Origin: a virus
Strand: one strand, 5' to 3'
DNA length: 24,517 nucleotides
Virus record (IMG/VR): IMGVR_UViG_3300037507_000420
Coordinates: 1-24,517 of that record
Shown here: one piece after another, positions 18,526 to 23,952 of the stretch
Position numbering within the stretch: position 1 is the first letter of the stretch
How the letters are laid out: each line of letters starts with the position of its first letter
Notes under the pieces: generated by a model
The model's database searches: none
Told to the model about the DNA's origin: nothing
The model's input: only the letters and a program-made list of their open reading frames with translations
Translations under genes and position numbers: made by a program

Positions 18526-18681
18526 ATGCAAGACCAATTTATGAGGATAGCGATGGCGCAGCTCCGTAGCACCTACCCCTTCAAGCCCCAACGCAGAGCA
18601 GTAGCTGCTCGTATGTGGGTGAAGTTTCTTGAGCGCAAAGCGATGGCGCAATGGTTCAAAGCCCAAGAGGCTAATGTATGA
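18526..18681 (+). CDS. Hypothetical basic protein, 51 residues
   Basis: ATG 18526 gives MQDQFMRIAMAQLRSTYPFK onward; a TTG at 18490 in the same frame would give 63 residues and lies one base after the ACCAATC element, but falls in a hairpin. The protein is basic and helical (KPQRRAVAARMWVKFLERKA; WFKAQEANV). It overlaps the glycosyltransferase gene as ATGA. No family recognised. Confidence 0.5.
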   Translation: MQDQFMRIAMAQLRSTYPFKPQRRAVAARMWVKFLERKAMAQWFKAQEANV

Positions 18682-19616
18682 TTAGACCCTTTGTACTCGC
18701 GTTCCACAAGCAAAACTCTGGTGTATCACACCACAGGACATTTGCACCCTTGATATGCCACAAGGATGCCGATGTCTTTTTTATTGAGAAAATCACCGAC
18801 ATTGACCCTGAGATGTGGCCTAAAGTCACTCACATCTTTGCAAGCCGTGCATTCCCAGTAGAGCCGTTTGATGACTTCGTAAAGCTCTGCCGTAAGGAGG
18901 GCATCAAGCTAATCGTTGACAATGATGACTGGTGGGTTCTGCCTCCTACGCATCCTTTGCAGGGATTGTACGTTGAGCGGATGAGAACTCGCATCGTGCG
19001 CTCTATGAAAGCAGCAGATGAGGTATGGGTGACAAACAAGCACCTTGCCTCAAAGGTCAAGAAGTACAATACCAACATCCGAATCATCCCCAATGCAATC
19101 AGCGTAGCAACGTGGCAGGTAGAGAGAAAGCCAAGCGAAGAAGTACGCTTTGGGTATATCGGAGGCAATCACCACGCAGCAGACGTAAAGGATTCCACAA
19201 TCAACCTTGAAGGCTATCAAGGGTATGTGGCAGAGGTAGATGGCTACCCAGATATAATGAAGGCAAGCCATAGGCTGCCAACAATGCCACCAACACACTA
19301 TCACAAACTCTACGAGTTCTTTGACGTGAGCCTCGTACCGCTTACGACATCGGAGTTTGCAAAGTGCAAGTCGCACCTAAAGATGTTGGAGGCAGGATTT
19401 AGCAAGTGCGCTCTGATAGTGAGCAACACGCAACCGTATTCACCCTACATCACCAAAGAGAACTGCATTGCCATCAAGCACCCAAGCGAATGGGCAGGAG
19501 CAATCAAAAGACTTAAAGAAAACCCCAACCAAGTGGCTGACCTAACGGAATCGTTATATGAGTTTGTGCAGGACTTCACGATGGATAAGATAAACGAACT
19601 GCGATGCTTTACATAG
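18678..19616 (+). CDS. GT-B fold glycosyltransferase (GT4-like)
   Basis: The 312-residue protein has a Rossmann-like N-terminal half with GVSHHRTFAPL, THIFASRAFP, LIVDNDDWWVLPP and DEVWVTNKHLASKV, followed by IIPNAI, which joins to the C-terminal half (FGYIGGNHHAADV; FDVSLVPL; KCKSHLKMLEAGFSKCALIV), the usual donor-binding region of GT-B enzymes. It transfers a sugar from a nucleotide-sugar donor; the acceptor is unknown. Candidates are phage DNA, a virion protein or a host surface glycan. It leads a four-gene run with 4-13 base overlaps. Confidence 0.75.
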   Translation: MIRPFVLAFHKQNSGVSHHRTFAPLICHKDADVFFIEKITDIDPEMWPKVTHIFASRAFPVEPFDDFVKLCRKEGIKLIVDNDDWWVLPPTHPLQGLYVERMRTRIVRSMKAADEVWVTNKHLASKVKKYNTNIRIIPNAISVATWQVERKPSEEVRFGYIGGNHHAADVKDSTINLEGYQGYVAEVDGYPDIMKASHRLPTMPPTHYHKLYEFFDVSLVPLTTSEFAKCKSHLKMLEAGFSKCALIVSNTQPYSPYITKENCIAIKHPSEWAGAIKRLKENPNQVADLTESLYEFVQDFTMDKINELRCFT

Positions 19617-20131
19617 TCACTCCCTGCTCACGCCCTCATAACCTCGTAAGGCTAAAACAACACATACCTGCGTACGCAACGTGGGTTGTGATGATGGATG
19701 CTGCTACCAATTACAAGGGAGCAACAAGCGCATCAATCACACACTACTCCACACGCACGGGAGATATGGGCAACCCACTCCGCAATGAGTTTCTTGACTT
19801 GTATGCTGATTCCTTTACCAAAGAGGACTGGGTTTACTATTTGGATGATGATAACGTGCTGCACCCAAAGTTCCTTGAGGAGTGGAACAACCTAAACGCT
19901 TTGGACTGTTCTATCGTAACGTGGGGACAAATAGGTAGGCTACGCCCTACCGACCAACCAAGAGTCGGCAACATAGACACCGCCTGCTATATGTTCAAGC
20001 CATACGACCTGCCCAATCTACGCTTTGAAATGACGTATGAGGCAGACGGTACCTTTGCCCAAGCAGCATCCGAGCAAGGCACACTTATCTGCGTAGAGCA
20101 GTACCTTTGTTATTACAACGCCCTAAAATGA
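19604..20131 (+). CDS. GT-A-like glycosyltransferase
   Basis: The 175-residue protein starts MLYIVTPCSRPHNLVRLKQH, a typical GT-A opening, and contains WVYYLDDDNVLHPKFLEEW, in which DDD is the metal/nucleotide-sugar motif (DxD). NIDTACYMFKPYDLPNLRF and YEADGTFAQAA cover the acceptor end. It is short for a GT2 enzyme, so it is a minimal catalytic domain. It overlaps the GT-B gene by 13 bases and the methyltransferase by 4, arguing for one pathway. Confidence 0.72.
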   Translation: MLYIVTPCSRPHNLVRLKQHIPAYATWVVMMDAATNYKGATSASITHYSTRTGDMGNPLRNEFLDLYADSFTKEDWVYYLDDDNVLHPKFLEEWNNLNALDCSIVTWGQIGRLRPTDQPRVGNIDTACYMFKPYDLPNLRFEMTYEADGTFAQAASEQGTLICVEQYLCYYNALK

Positions 20132-20655
20132 AAACGAGCAAACAAATAGACGGGTGGTTCAACCACCAAGCAGCATACGACTACCTCCTTGCCAATATGC
20201 CAGAAGACGGCACGTTCGTAGAACTGGGTGCGTGGCTCGGTAAGTCATCAGCTTACCTATGCGACAAAGCAACATCCCAAAACATCACAATCATAGATTC
20301 TTGGAAGGGGTCACCAAACGAACTCACGACCACCCACAAGCTCGCAACGGAGGTAGACATCTACGACCTGTTCTTGGAGAATATGGGAGACCGTAAATAC
20401 AAGGCCATCAAAGCAACATCCAAATCAGCATCAAAGAAGTTTGCCAACGAATCCCTTGACGTGGTGTTTATAGACCTAACCCATACTTATGAAGCGGTAA
20501 AGGAAGACATCAAGCTATGGCTACCCAAAGTAAAGAAGGGAGGCTACATAGCAGGAGATGACTACCACGAACATTGGAAGGGAGTAATCCAAGCCGTTGA
20601 TGAACTGCTGCCTCGCGCTACGTTCATTGATGACTGTTGGATTTACCAAAGGTGA
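20128..20655 (+). CDS. Class I SAM-dependent methyltransferase (Methyltransf_24-like)
   Basis: From ATG 20128 (overlapping TGA as ATGA) the protein has 175 residues. Motif I is TFVELGAWLGKSSAYL (29-44), motif II ITIIDSWKG (D57), and the motif IV region is LDVVFIDLTHTYEAVKEDIK and KVKKGGYIAGDDYHEHW. This resembles small-molecule/sugar O-methyltransferases such as the Methyltransf_24 or CmcI type more than DNA methylases (no DPPY or PC motif). Next to two glycosyltransferases it probably caps or decorates a glycan. Confidence 0.75.
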   Translation: MKTSKQIDGWFNHQAAYDYLLANMPEDGTFVELGAWLGKSSAYLCDKATSQNITIIDSWKGSPNELTTTHKLATEVDIYDLFLENMGDRKYKAIKATSKSASKKFANESLDVVFIDLTHTYEAVKEDIKLWLPKVKKGGYIAGDDYHEHWKGVIQAVDELLPRATFIDDCWIYQR

Positions 20656-20912
20656 AGAACCACACAAAGGTCTACCTCAAAGGGATGGGCTACTCCACAA
20701 CTGACTTTATCCCCTGCGAGGTATGTCAAGGCCAAGCCGTAGACATACATCACATAGAGTCAAGAGGAATGGGTGGAAGCAAAATTGCTGATACGATAGA
20801 AAACCTGATGGCACTATGCCGTGCCTGCCACGTTGCATACGGAGATATTAAAGAATTTAAGGAGCGACTTAAAGCAACACACAACCACCACCTATCAAAA
20901 AGAGTTATTTAG
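20652..20912 (+). CDS. HNH endonuclease domain protein
   Basis: GTG 20652 overlaps the methyltransferase TGA (GTGA). The 86-residue protein is one HNH domain: CEVC (22-25), DIHHIESRG (31-39), N51 and CRACH (56-60). The two CxxC knuckles bind zinc and the HH pair plus N/H hold the catalytic metal. Small HNH proteins near terminase can assist packaging, or be homing or anti-competitor nucleases. Here five genes separate it from neither fibre nor capsid but only ParB and ABC-GNAT from terminase. Confidence 0.8.
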   Translation: MKNHTKVYLKGMGYSTTDFIPCEVCQGQAVDIHHIESRGMGGSKIADTIENLMALCRACHVAYGDIKEFKERLKATHNHHLSKRVI

Positions 20913-20914
20913 TT

Positions 20915-21433
20915 ATGCAAAGAGCAGCAATCGGTACAATCATACCAAACCCAGTAAACCCAAGAATCATAAAGGATGACAAGTTCAAGAAGCTTGTAAA
21001 GTCCATACAGGAGTTCCCACAGATGCTTGAGCTGCGCCCAATCGTAGTAGATGGCAATATGGTAGTGCTTGGGGGAAATATGCGCCTTAAGGCTTGCATA
21101 GCCGCAGGACTGAAGGAAGTACCCATCATTGTCGCAGACCAACTCACCGATGCGCAGAAGGCTGAGTTTATCATTAAGGATAACGTAGGCTTCGGTGAAT
21201 GGGATTGGGACTTGCTTGCCAACCAATGGGATGTAGAGGCCTTAGAAGATTGGGGTCTTGAACTGCCCTTTGACAATACCCCTGTGCTTGAAGCAGAAGA
21301 TGAAACCGATTTGTCAGACAAAATCAAATCAGCATTCAGAATAGAAATAGAACTTGAGAACGAAGAAGAACAAGAGAAGATGTATAATCAGTTAATATCA
21401 GACGGGTACAAATGCCGAGTTTTGACATTGTAA
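20915..21433 (+). CDS. ParB-like nuclease-domain protein
   Basis: The 172-residue protein has the ParB/Srx N-terminal fold: NPVNPRIIKDDKFKKLVKSI (12-31), RPIVVDGNMVVLGGNMRLKA (41-60, GGNMRLKA for the usual GGERR-like motif) and CIAAGLKEVPIIVAD. Then follow DNVGFGEWDWDLLANQWD (91-108) and an acidic tail with IEIELENEEEQEKMYNQLI. Phage ParB proteins of this kind usually partner DNA-modification enzymes rather than partition plasmids. It overlaps the ABC-GNAT gene by 22 bases. CTPase residues are not obvious. Confidence 0.8.
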   Translation: MQRAAIGTIIPNPVNPRIIKDDKFKKLVKSIQEFPQMLELRPIVVDGNMVVLGGNMRLKACIAAGLKEVPIIVADQLTDAQKAEFIIKDNVGFGEWDWDLLANQWDVEALEDWGLELPFDNTPVLEAEDETDLSDKIKSAFRIEIELENEEEQEKMYNQLISDGYKCRVLTL

Positions 21434-22473
21434 GGGAGTCCAAGCCCTCAAAATCTTTTCGTGTTGCATCTGTAATGGGAAAGTTTGACCTTGACTCAAA
21501 TCACATCAAGGAGCATTTTGTAGGTAGCATTGATATTCCAAGTTCTTGGAATGTTGGTCTCATTGTAGGTTCATCAGGAACGGGCAAAACAACAATAGCT
21601 CGTGAGCTATTTGAAAATGCATACATTACAGATTTTCACTATGAATCGGAATCAATACTTGATGATATGCCAAAGTCAAAGAGCGTTGATGAAATTACAT
21701 CAGTATTCAATTCAGTTGGTTTTTCATCACCGCCTTCTTGGCTTAAGCCTTATTCGGCATTGAGCAATGGTCAGAAGATGCGTGTTGACTTGGCAAACGC
21801 TTTGCTCCAAGATAAAGACTTAATTGTATTTGATGAGTTTACTTCAGTAGTAGACCGCAATGTTGCGCAAATTGGTTCCAACGCAGTACAGAAGTCAATA
21901 CGAAAGCTCAATAAACAGTTCATAGCAGTAACTTGTCATTTTGATATAGAAGATTGGCTCTTGCCCGATTGGGTATTTGATACTGATTCAATGACCTTTC
22001 GTTCTTACGAAGGGCAAAAAAAAAATAGACCATCAATTAACTTCGAGATATTGCAAGCAGCAGATAAGTCAATTTGGAAGGTCTTTGCTAAACATCACTA
22101 TTTGAGTCACACGCATAACAACGCAGCAAATGTTTTTGTCGCATACATAAATGGACAGTTGGCAGCATTCTTGAGCGTTCTCCATTTTCCACATCCCAAA
22201 GTAAAGAATATGAAAAAAGTACATAGATTGGTTGTCTTGCCCGATTATCAAGGCATAGGTATCGGAATAAAGATGCTTGAAAGTATTGGTGAGATGTACA
22301 AAAAGCAAAAAGATAGATATTCAATAGTCACATCTTCGCCTTCTTTAATTCACGCTTTGAAGAAATCTGATAAATGGAGATGCTTAAGATTTGGCAGAAC
22401 AAAAGAATCTACGGGTGTATTAAAAGGTGCAACATCCAAACAACGTATAACAACATCATTTGAAATTAGATGA
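21412..22473 (+). CDS. ABC-ATPase/GNAT fusion, Mom-like DNA-modification candidate
   Basis: The 353-residue protein has an ABC ATPase half: Walker A GSSGTGKTT (53-61), signature LSNGQ (117-121), Walker B LIVFDEF (137-143), D-loop SVVD and H-loop H176. After a linker at 200-208, a GNAT half follows: HHYLS (228-232), VFVAYINGQLAAFLSVLHFP (241-260), the acyl-CoA loop HRLVVLPDYQGIGIG (271-285) and a C-terminal W322. The HHYLS and LVVLPDYQGIGIG motifs recall the phage Mu Mom family, which modifies adenine N6 and blocks restriction. No membrane segments, so not a transporter. The substrate is inferred. Confidence 0.72.
   Translation: MPSFDIVRESKPSKSFRVASVMGKFDLDSNHIKEHFVGSIDIPSSWNVGLIVGSSGTGKTTIARELFENAYITDFHYESESILDDMPKSKSVDEITSVFNSVGFSSPPSWLKPYSALSNGQKMRVDLANALLQDKDLIVFDEFTSVVDRNVAQIGSNAVQKSIRKLNKQFIAVTCHFDIEDWLLPDWVFDTDSMTFRSYEGQKKNRPSINFEILQAADKSIWKVFAKHHYLSHTHNNAANVFVAYINGQLAAFLSVLHFPHPKVKNMKKVHRLVVLPDYQGIGIGIKMLESIGEMYKKQKDRYSIVTSSPSLIHALKKSDKWRCLRFGRTKESTGVLKGATSKQRITTSFEIR
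22016..22025 (+). other. A10 run at the ABC/GNAT junction (slippage candidate)
   Basis: Ten consecutive A fall in codons 202-205 (QKKN), in the linker between the two domains. One extra A would give a TAG right after K-K-K and thus a free ABC-ATPase; one A less would end the frame after some 25 codons. It is the longest A run in the window. Confidence 0.5.
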
Positions 22474-22817
22474 CAAGTAGTGACATCCATAAAAAGGCAA
22501 TGCTCGATGCGTTGGAGAAATCTTTAGGGGTAGTGACCTCCGCTTGCAAGAGCGTTGACATCGCAAGGCAAACGCATTACCGATGGCTGCAAGAGGATAA
22601 AGAATACAAAGCAGCAGTCGAAGAACTATCAGACGTAGCCATTGACTTTGCAGAGAGCCAACTGCACAAGCAGATAAAGGAGGGCAACTCCACCGCTACT
22701 ATCTTCTTTCTAAAGACCAAAGGCAAGAAGCGTGGGTATGTGGAACGCCAAGAGCTAGACGTATCTTCGGGCAAGCTATTTCAAATTGAGGTGCTTGGCG
22801 AAGATTTACACGAATAA
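22470..22817 (+). CDS. terS: Terminase small subunit
   Basis: The 115-residue protein begins at ATG 22470, overlapping the previous TGA. An N-terminal helix-turn-helix (MLDALEKSLGVVTSACKSVD, IARQTHYRWLQEDKEYKAAV) would recognise the packaging site; SQLHKQIKEGNSTATIFFLK and TKGKKRGYVERQEL are typical of phage small terminases that resemble HTH transposase-like domains. It lies directly before and overlaps the large subunit by 32 bases. Confidence 0.82.
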   Translation: MTSSDIHKKAMLDALEKSLGVVTSACKSVDIARQTHYRWLQEDKEYKAAVEELSDVAIDFAESQLHKQIKEGNSTATIFFLKTKGKKRGYVERQELDVSSGKLFQIEVLGEDLHE

Positions 22818-23952
22818 GGTTTACAACCACCTAAAGCGCAGCGATAAGAAGATAGTCGTTGAGCAGGGCGGTACTCGTAGCGGAAAGACTTACAACATCC
22901 TGCTATGGGTGATTTTCTATTATAGCACACGAGAGACCAACAAGACCATCACCATCTGCCGTAAGACGTTCCCTTCGCTGCGTGCTTCGGTGATGCGTGA
23001 CTTCTTTGAGATACTGCGCAACCACGACCTGTACAGTGAAAGCTACCACAACAGGTCAAGCCACGAGTATTATCTGAATGGCAACCTTGTGGAGTTTATC
23101 AGCCTTGACCAACCGCAGAAGATACGAGGGCGCAAGCGCAACCTACTTTACATTAACGAAGCCAACGAGCTGACGTATGAGGATTGGCAGCAGCTTATTA
23201 TGCGAACTGAAGACAGGGCAATCCTTGACTACAACCCTTCGGATGCGTTCCATTGGATTTATGATAAGGTGGTGACCCGTGATGACTGCGACTTCTATCA
23301 GACCACCTACCTTGATAACCCGTTCCTTGATAGCAGCATCCGAAATGAAATAGAACGGCTACGTGATACCGATAACGACTATTGGAGAATCTACGGACTC
23401 GGAGAACGTGGGATGAGCAGAGCCACCATCTTTCAATACGGGCAGGCAGAGATACCAACGGATGCCACGCTCTTATGTCACGGACTTGACTGGGGTTACA
23501 CGAATGACCCAAGCGCATTGGTGGCAGTCTATAAGTCGGGTGACAATCTTTATGTGGATGAGCTTATCTACCGCACGGGGATGACCAACCCCGACATCAG
23601 CAACGTACTTGCCTCACTTGGGCTTGATAGACGTACGGAGGTATTTGCTGACTCTGCTGAACCCAAATCTATTGAGGAGCTGCATCGTATGGGATGGAAC
23701 GTGAAACCCACGCAGAAGGGCGCAGATAGCGTCATAGTGGGCATTGACGTGCTGAAGCGGCACAAGCTATTTGTAACCCCACGCAGCAGCAACCTAATCA
23801 AGGAACTTCAGAACTACAAATGGGTAGAAGACAAAAATGGAAACCTGCTTAATCGCCCCATTGATGCATTCAACCACGCCATAGATGCGCTTCGCTATGC
23901 AACCTACAACAAACTAAGCAGACCTAACTTTGGCAGGTATGCCATACGCTAA
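22786..23952 (+). CDS. terL: Terminase large subunit
   Basis: The 388-residue protein (TTG 22786; TTG 22795 is a second choice) packages DNA. The ATPase half has Walker A GGTRSGKT (28-35) and LLYINEANEL (120-129, E125; an Asn stands where Asp is usual). The RNase-H-like nuclease half has HGLDWGYTNDP (D235), VFADSAEPKSI (D289) and IDAFNHAIDALRY (D367). Length is normal to slightly short for Terminase_6/3-type proteins. It is followed by the chaperone-like gene after a 21-base gap. Confidence 0.92.
   Translation: MRCLAKIYTNKVYNHLKRSDKKIVVEQGGTRSGKTYNILLWVIFYYSTRETNKTITICRKTFPSLRASVMRDFFEILRNHDLYSESYHNRSSHEYYLNGNLVEFISLDQPQKIRGRKRNLLYINEANELTYEDWQQLIMRTEDRAILDYNPSDAFHWIYDKVVTRDDCDFYQTTYLDNPFLDSSIRNEIERLRDTDNDYWRIYGLGERGMSRATIFQYGQAEIPTDATLLCHGLDWGYTNDPSALVAVYKSGDNLYVDELIYRTGMTNPDISNVLASLGLDRRTEVFADSAEPKSIEELHRMGWNVKPTQKGADSVIVGIDVLKRHKLFVTPRSSNLIKELQNYKWVEDKNGNLLNRPIDAFNHAIDALRYATYNKLSRPNFGRYAIR

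Follow-up and report, generated by a model that had tools for sequence, protein, structure and literature searches.

IMG/VR record IMGVR_UViG_3300037507_000420 is a virus fragment of 24,517 bases, taken here over its entire length (positions 1 to 24,517; hereafter the window). On its plus strand, positions 20,915 to 22,473 hold two overlapping genes, one for a ParB-like protein and one for a protein that joins an ABC ATPase to a GNAT domain (ABC-GNAT). A preliminary description of this DNA had noted the overlapping pair; its coordinates are exact, the overlap measures 22 nucleotides (nt), and both products have Pfam matches. From the sequence, we consider it probable, with moderate confidence, that the pair constitutes a phage DNA-modification cassette in which an adaptor-guided ABC-GNAT, made with programmed slippage on a run of ten adenines (A10), acylates the phage's own DNA. 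Beyond the preliminary account, the sections below treat the linker run, an adaptor module and donor-type genes. The locus comprises the following features:

20915..21433, + strand: ParB/Srx N-terminal-domain protein, 172 amino acids (aa) (PF02195, E 4.3e-7; phrog_498/17622/620/940)
21332..21430, + strand: C-terminal adaptor module of the ParB protein, residues 140-172 (adaptor hidden Markov model (HMM), 47.7 bits)
21412..21433, + strand: dual-coding overlap of the ParB and ABC-GNAT genes, 22 nt (geometry recurs among relatives)
21412..22473, + strand: ABC ATPase-GNAT fusion protein, 353 aa (Pfam, PHROG, AlphaFold)
21568..21591, + strand: Walker A GSSGTGKT, residues 53-60 (motif)
21760..21774, + strand: ABC signature LSNGQ, residues 117-121 (motif)
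21817..21837, + strand: Walker B DLIVFDE, residues 136-142, with catalytic Glu142 (motif; E142 100% in 154 sequences)
21937..21939, + strand: H-loop His176 (motif and conservation)
22016..22025, + strand: A10 slippery run in the ABC-GNAT linker, CAA AAA AAA AAT, residues 202-205 (107/107 clade sequences)
22026..22028, + strand: TAG stop directly after a -1 slip, predicted to yield a 205-aa ABC-only product (one-codon stop in 105/107)
22018..22473, + strand: GNAT domain, residues 203-353 (PF13508/PF00583/PF13673; AlphaFold pLDDT 91.1)
22093..22107, + strand: HHYLS motif, residues 228-232 (H229 98%, Y230 100% in 154 sequences)
22216..22269, + strand: GNAT CoA-binding motif KVHRLVVLPDYQGIGIGI, residues 269-286 (motif and conservation)
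22470..23952, + strand: small and large terminase genes, directly downstream of the cassette (phrog_309, E 1.1e-9; PF04466, E 1e-22)

Catalytic halves of the ABC-GNAT protein and its family

The 353-aa protein is matched in Pfam by ABC_tran (PF00005, E 1.5e-9) and Acetyltransf_7 (PF13508, E 5.4e-8), and PHROG 11143 covers its residues 6-327 (E 1.3e-97). Its ABC half holds Walker A, the signature, the Walker B glutamate and the H-loop; its GNAT half has, besides the domain profile, the CoA-binding motif A with a conserved QGxGxG stretch, and it carries the motif HRLVVLPDYQGIGIG beside HHYLS. Among 154 non-redundant family members (<80% identity, drawn from 361), G53, G58, K59, S118, G120, D141, E142, H176, D178, Y230 and W322 are 100% conserved, R272, P277 and G281 99% and H229 98%. 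Because active-site residues are 99-100% conserved in these members, both halves look catalytically intact, and the complete ABC core and GNAT motifs of the preliminary description are all present. AlphaFold renders the full protein as two confident globular domains (mean pLDDT 90.6).

The modelled ABC domain resembles transporter-type nucleotide-binding domains, with PmtCD at the top (Z 15.7, rmsd 2.7 over 178) and the following matches tied; the ABC matches among the 50 structural neighbours listed are mostly transporter-type domains. A function as transporter is thought unlikely because the protein has no membrane part: as stated before, no transmembrane segment is apparent in it, the highest 19-residue Kyte-Doolittle mean being 1.56. 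Among eight genes scanned with Pfam (18678-23952), no membrane-transport family was found besides the ABC domain itself. The preliminary comparison with SMC/Rad50-type ATPases had to be abandoned, since in the ABC half K59 and the signature at L117 lie 58 residues apart with no coiled-coil insert in between, and its listed structural neighbours are mostly of the transporter type, although the lack of SMC among the 50 listed is no evidence of exclusion. With respect to defence systems, PADLOC returned partial matches alone: the ABC half is matched in parts by mad3 and mad8, the ParB protein in parts by MTase_II and, weakly, by PglX.

For the GNAT model, the leading structural matches are RimI (Z 14.7, rmsd 2.4 over 128), 1y9k and Naa50, tied at Z 13.9-14.7, which weighs against a DNA substrate. 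These RimI and Naa50/NatC-type peptide acetyltransferases among the closest solved folds, together with the RNA base acetyltransferase TmcA (ATPase plus GNAT), which Foldseek places at rank 33 when queried with the full model, favour an alternative in which the target recruited by the ABC part and acylated by the GNAT half would be RNA or a protein (host RNA polymerase, a nucleoid protein or a restriction protein). We judge this alternative rather unlikely: the matches to RimI/Naa50-like and other GNATs lie at 8-19% identity and hence at superfamily level, the recurrent ParB partner resembles a domain of phage proteins named DNA methyltransferase (phrog_498), and the contig-end position in Mu-like records and the Mom neighbours described below point to DNA. 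A match to protein or antibiotic acetyltransferases had been proposed as grounds for dismissing base modification; at superfamily level, the matches found are not decisive. The GNAT half is also matched structurally by BFVD entry A0A8S5PZ92, a phage protein named aspartate 1-decarboxylase.

Like the tRNA(Met) cytidine acetyltransferase TmcA (PDB 2zpa), the window protein fuses an ATPase to a GNAT domain. TmcA acetylates a nucleobase amino group of RNA, and its ATPase is helicase-like, not ABC; its RNA substrate sets it apart from the DNA-directed activity proposed for the window protein.

ABC-GNAT belongs to a large phage and prophage family (PHROG 11143). A tblastn search of 50,697 phage records gave matches in 81, which in 44 cases span 80% or more of the query; 312 IMG/VR stretches encode relatives of the window query, and 468 stretches of genome contigs, many in Planctomycetota, Nonomuraea and Endozoicomonas, encode relatives recognised by a 15-sequence profile. 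The loci analysed were the best 80 of the 312 and the best 80 of the 468, a Mu-like set (L179-L258, best 80 of 359), the best 80 of 250 for a PX29 query and 39 loci for a Jace query. Set names follow the query, 'Jace-like' denoting L291-L311 and 'PX29-like' L312-L408 (97 loci, with L312-L329 from the Jace query). As best-scoring loci were used, the counts below favour close relatives and include near-duplicates; the window's own locus is L001, and L018 is near-identical to the window. Because 18 of the 80 genome-contig loci contain a match to the large terminase subunit (TerL) of the window, at least some genome-contig members are prophages. The names 'ABC iron siderophore transporter', 'hemin importer ATP-binding subunit' and 'DNA polymerase', under which members are annotated in phage records, are likely misnomers. 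In Tenacibaculum phage pT24 (L015, 2860-4032), the homologue is annotated as two same-frame open reading frames (ORFs) with an in-frame stop within the GNAT domain. Laboratory phages with the cassette include Lactococcus P335, Arthrobacter EastWest, Gordonia/Rhodococcus Jace and Nonlabens P12024S.

The slippery joint between the two halves

The reading frames of the two halves were compared in 278 loci, corresponding to 229 unique sequences, with the Mu-like and PX29-like sets left out. Throughout the window's clade, in which the halves are in frame, A10 occupies the joint (107 of 107 unique sequences), and a stop in the -1 frame follows after exactly one codon in 105 of them and after 2 and 10 codons in the other two. 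The window itself shows an AAAAAAA heptamer followed by TAG, that is, the X XXY YYZ pattern with an early -1 stop. This arrangement resembles dnaX of E. coli and Thermus, a case of A-run slippage, in that A-run codons lie near a domain joint and a chain shifted to -1 terminates within one or two codons as a short product; it differs from dnaX in the protein concerned, in that no stimulatory structure was found, and in that some relatives are inverted, so that the shift yields the fusion.

Relative to the ABC half, these inverted relatives, some of them annotated as two genes, encode the GNAT half in the -1 frame; there are 21 such unique sequences, of which 16 count as distinct at <85% ungapped identity. 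Their joint bears a strict X XXY YYZ heptamer in 17 of the 21 (12 of the 16 distinct ones), and the 17 heptamers are of four kinds: AAAAAAA, TTTTTTT, GGGAAAG and AAAGGGC. Outside the window clade, a joint heptamer occurs in one of 100 in-frame sequences; one sequence in the +1 frame, L441, carries A11. Counted per set, linker heptamers are found in 81 of 81 window-type loci, where the remainder of the gene would predict about 15, in 2 of 80 Mu-like loci (3.4 expected) and in 1 of 95 PX29-like loci (7.7 expected). Among the split loci treated below, heptamers farther 3' in the shared stretch of L004 and L016 were left uncounted because they lie inside the GNAT domain.

Codon usage at the linker was assessed in 23 non-redundant window-type loci (<82% nucleotide identity). 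Twelve of 138 degenerate positions with an invariant amino acid are also codon-invariant, and four of the twelve are the consecutive residues Q202-K203-K204-N205. Considering the 19 amino-acid-invariant K, N and Q positions, codons are fixed at 4/4 in the linker versus 0/15 elsewhere, the sequences being related and hence not independent draws, and the base rates being taken from the same sequences; the corresponding figures elsewhere are 2/37 for K/N/Q/R/E/D and 7/52 for all two-fold residues, and R206 reaches 96%. Ahead of the linker, the codons of M194-T195-F196 (21991-21999, ATG ACC TTT) are nearly nucleotide-invariant as well (T195 0.96, F196 1.0).

The simplest reading of these patterns is that slippage, either ribosomal or transcriptional, would give rise to ABC-only chains as well as ABC-GNAT ones, irrespective of the encoded frame. 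Several observations weigh against it: the joint of three streptococcal or lactococcal out-of-frame sequences offers just a C4-C5 run, L311 is without a heptamer in the part that was counted, folding of six loci gave no convincing RNA structure downstream (minimum free energy -6 to -10.8 kcal/mol, computed without shuffles), and in three of the nine split loci inspected a TTG or GTG comes ahead of the conserved GNAT start. Since a start codon is available there, separate initiation of the GNAT half would be possible in these three (L111, L140, L174). The last two points also favour an alternative in which the run simply encodes KKN in AT-rich genomes and the out-of-frame copies are decayed, misassembled or composed of two separately started genes, as do the prevalence of AAA (81% of the Lys codons in these genes) and L441, A-runs being mutational hot spots. 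We nevertheless regard an unprogrammed run as improbable in view of the fixed linker codons and the one-codon stop. Moreover, the out-of-frame copies retain the conserved GNAT motifs, the nine inspected span eight host names, the 17 joint heptamers are of the four kinds named above, and among the nine the shared stretch lacks a start codon in four and contains TTG, GTG or ATG in the other five.

The adaptor module and donor-type neighbour genes

The ParB/Srx N-terminal domain of the upstream protein is recognised by PF02195 and is related to the phrog_498 proteins mentioned above. The Pfam scan gave no helix-turn-helix match in its 172 residues; a ParA partner was not separately sought. In a single-sequence search, the 22-nt overlap with the ABC-GNAT gene recurs in 87 of 90 loci in which both genes were found (window, L001 and L018 included); in a search with an adaptor profile, it is present in 121 of 253 loci with an upstream adaptor, and an exact-ATG test finds this geometry in 132 loci (44 non-redundant). 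An overlap of 4 nt occurs in 90 of the 253, of which 75 are from the Mu-like set. GGAGG-like codons just 5' of the ABC-GNAT start in many members could serve as a ribosome site; the window itself has none ahead of its second start.

The recurrent partner of ABC-GNAT is the last ~34 residues of the ParB protein rather than the entire ParB domain. This adaptor module scores 47.7 bits in the window, whose own copy formed part of the HMM training set, and PHROG 28816 matches ParB residues 137-170 weakly (E 0.015). In a survey of loci selected for ABC-GNAT, it lies directly upstream of the fusion in 81/81 window-type loci (window and L018 included), 75/80 of the Mu-like set, 18/21 Jace-like loci (one without room), 64/80 genome-contig loci (three without room) and 12/16 named-phage loci. 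A ParB domain was counted in 0/80 of the Mu-like set, where the module is a separate protein of ~55 aa; both stand-alone proteins tried are identified by PHROG 28816. In L106 and L144, ParB, adaptor, ABC and GNAT are naturally fused in a single ORF. Altogether, the 35,337 ORFs of the survey gave 288 adaptor matches, of which 270 are directly upstream of or overlap ABC-GNAT; the other 18 are two fusions, ORFs with a start extended past that of their neighbour, or matches within ~3 kb in the same locus. Against a general role stands that the adaptor occurs in just 2 of 97 PX29-like loci (L320, L321); therefore, ParB is not essential to all family members. No conserved partner was found among the neighbour genes of the PX29-like set; the ABC-GNATs of the PX29 query (L330-L408) have no constant neighbour, and by eye DNA polymerase-like and replication-type genes recur near some of them. 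A second ParB-like gene was seen near ABC-GNAT in L138, L310, L301 and L318.

In parts of the family, the cassette is accompanied by genes that might supply an acyl donor. In the Mu-like set, a formyltransferase-like gene follows in 55 of the 59 loci in which 450 nt or more remain downstream (21 more have no room), and such a gene also lies 3' of ABC-GNAT in Gordonia phage Ligma and in L320. For the formyltransferase of L180, the top solved relative is the N-terminal domain of 10-formyl-THF dehydrogenase (1s3i, E 3.2e-23), from which it differs as a stand-alone phage gene; next come sugar-nucleotide formyltransferase (2.1e-15), methionyl-tRNA formyltransferase (1.7e-14) and glycinamide ribonucleotide transformylase (2.6e-10). 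Jace-like loci encode the aspartate decarboxylase PanD (13/21; 8/15 per unique ABC sequence) and a short family III CoA-transferase (17/21; 12/15), as identified by Pfam on examples. PanD starts 4 nt inside the ABC-GNAT gene in four Jace-like sequences, and in L302 both genes are upstream. The genome-contig set contains PanD in 3/80 and the CoA-transferase in 5/80 loci. Alignments retain the GS site of PanD, the formyltransferase stretch HPSLLP (HPSPLP in L006) and the GDTxxG stretch of the CoA-transferase, which we take to be active sites.

The most economical reading of the Jace-type loci is that PanD would provide beta-alanine, the CoA-transferase would convert it into beta-alanyl-CoA, and the GNAT half would transfer the beta-alanyl group. 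Counting against it, the CoA-transferase has no solved relative at E 0.1, that of L306 is barely above the Pfam cut-off (24.6 vs 23.3 bits), neither it nor the PanD of L306 has a PHROG match, and the window has no donor gene. For this last reason, the window enzyme may draw its acyl group from a common host acyl-CoA. A role of the GNAT half in activating PanD, after the manner of PanZ, was set aside since most family members were seen without a PanD match.

Candidate DNA target, relation to Mom and surroundings of the cassette

Pairings of GNAT with an ABC ATPase are predicted to acylate a DNA base in section 3.4.7 of a paper by Iyer, Aravind and colleagues (PMC7824862), which cites their earlier work. 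Base acylation, the central idea here, is therefore already published as a prediction. The window protein shows the same coupling and is thus a member of that predicted kind; a phage of the name given there as an example, pT24, carries a homologue of it (35.3% identity over 79%, tblastn). In contrast to the present account, a ParB adaptor, donor genes, slippage and a position at the genome end go unmentioned in that section; the authors' earlier work may contain some of these. Literature listings of limited reach, outside which the Aravind group's earlier work lies, report neither the adaptor nor the donor modules, the genome-end position or the slippage. Within the same listings, which cover few subscription papers, no report matched aspartate decarboxylase or CoA-transferase with phage, formyltransferase with GNAT, or frameshifting with acetyltransferase or ParB.

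Because of this published prediction, the contig-end position and the Mom-family neighbours, DNA-directed acyl transfer, and not transport, is the likeliest activity. This part of the preliminary Mom-type assignment is supported; membership in the Mom family finds support in neither Pfam nor PHROGs nor hhalign. The profile search that had been suggested places the GNAT half in GNAT families (PF13508, E 1.3e-8 for the isolated half) and not with Mom: neither the full protein nor the isolated half matches PF25680 or phrog_1384, both of which recognise Mu Mom as positive control (E 2.4e-75 and 7.8e-84). Against an alignment of ten Mom sequences, hhalign gives a probability of 6.8% over 43 columns, with HHYLS in register with Mom KHYS. 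The Mom structure 8bv8, although in the PDB, is absent among the 50 matches listed for the GNAT model by Foldseek or VIA, which excludes nothing.

The common superfamily and the registered HY(S/L) motif are what the window GNAT shares with Mu Mom, and they would fit a genuine Mom-family enzyme installing N6-carbamoylmethyl-adenine. We deem such an identity very unlikely: besides the missing profile matches, the GNAT half retains a CoA loop (QGxGxG) that is not seen in the alignment of Mom sequences, and Mom genes adjoin ABC-GNAT as separate genes. By profile, the window GNAT thus differs from Mom as a separate family, and it is further distinguished by its fusion to an ATPase, its canonical CoA loop and its ParB/adaptor partner.

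Whole-record searches covered 20 records of the Mu-like set (18 of 80 plus two named phages). A Mu transposase C domain was detected in 11 of them, in 10 above the cut-off. In these ten records, 0-611 nt separate the end of the ABC-GNAT gene from the contig end, and the transposase is 20-33 kb away. In Mu, mom sits near the genome end; the ABC-GNAT gene of Mu-like records is found at the spot where Mu keeps mom, which points to DNA, an argument weakened by the fact that predicted provirus ends may be set by trimming. None of the 20 records contains Mom by a search that did detect it in the L345 record. Among the 97 PX29-like loci (L312-L408), 10 have a Mom-family gene within ~4 kb, and five of these ten overlap the end of ABC-GNAT by a few bases; the neighbour in L345, the only one run against Pfam, is confirmed by PF25680 (E 3.1e-12). 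DNA-methyltransferase motifs (DPPY, NPPY) were seen by eye in genes near some loci, and the one motif-bearing neighbour scanned gave a sub-threshold Eco57I match only.

Sequence itself shows two intact catalytic domains, the recurrence of the gene pair, the adaptor module, the conserved slippery site and neighbours of the donor type. That DNA is the substrate, that a base receives the acyl group, that the adaptor binds, that two products are used and that ATP drives the mechanism is inferred, as is the identity of the acyl group. Taken together, we envisage the following mechanism. The ParB-N protein would bind ABC-GNAT via its short C-terminal adaptor module and guide it to DNA, where the ABC half, dimerising on ATP, would take hold of the DNA or remodel it, while the GNAT half would move an acyl group from acyl-CoA onto a base amino group, thereby protecting the genome before packaging. 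Slippage on A10 would leave most chains as ABC-GNAT and end some past the linker as a dnaX-like 205-aa ABC-only subunit, which would set a mixed ratio of ATPase to ATPase-transferase subunits; in some relatives, neighbouring genes would make the acyl donor. A wider scheme, which we put forward tentatively and consider doubtful as a whole, is modular base acylation in which a small adaptor, alone or on ParB, loads slippage-mixed subunits onto DNA and lineages attach their own acyl groups: Jace-type phages would use beta-alanyl, and Mu-like ones, where the cassette would replace mom, a group derived from formyl.

If base acylation by this cassette is correct, it would name a widespread phage and prophage DNA-modification system and place alongside Mom another means of acylating bases, one that uses ATP; the donor genes would predict the adduct and the slippery joint two subunits, a new dnaX-like case in which a single gene yields a motor and a motor-plus-enzyme. 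It would also account for genes labelled 'siderophore transporter' or 'hypothetical'.

The terminase genes directly downstream in the window, and a TerL-like ORF in 65 of 99 sequences scanned (counting the window and its own locus), which in window-type loci is mostly the second ORF downstream, suggest another function, namely regulation of phage DNA packaging or segregation instead of base modification. This appears highly improbable, as the cassette does not directly precede the terminase in Porphyromonas, Jace and PX29 phages and the conserved acyl-CoA motif has no obvious role in packaging.

Since the closest relatives of the window TerL (37-39% identity) are from a faecal phage and from phages of Phocaeicola, Parabacteroides and Flavobacterium, the virus likely has a Bacteroidota host. 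Upstream of the cassette, positions 18678-20655 hold glycosyltransferase-like genes (one by phrog_7162, one by weak Pfam matches) and a Methyltransf_24 gene, possibly a virion or surface glycan cluster.

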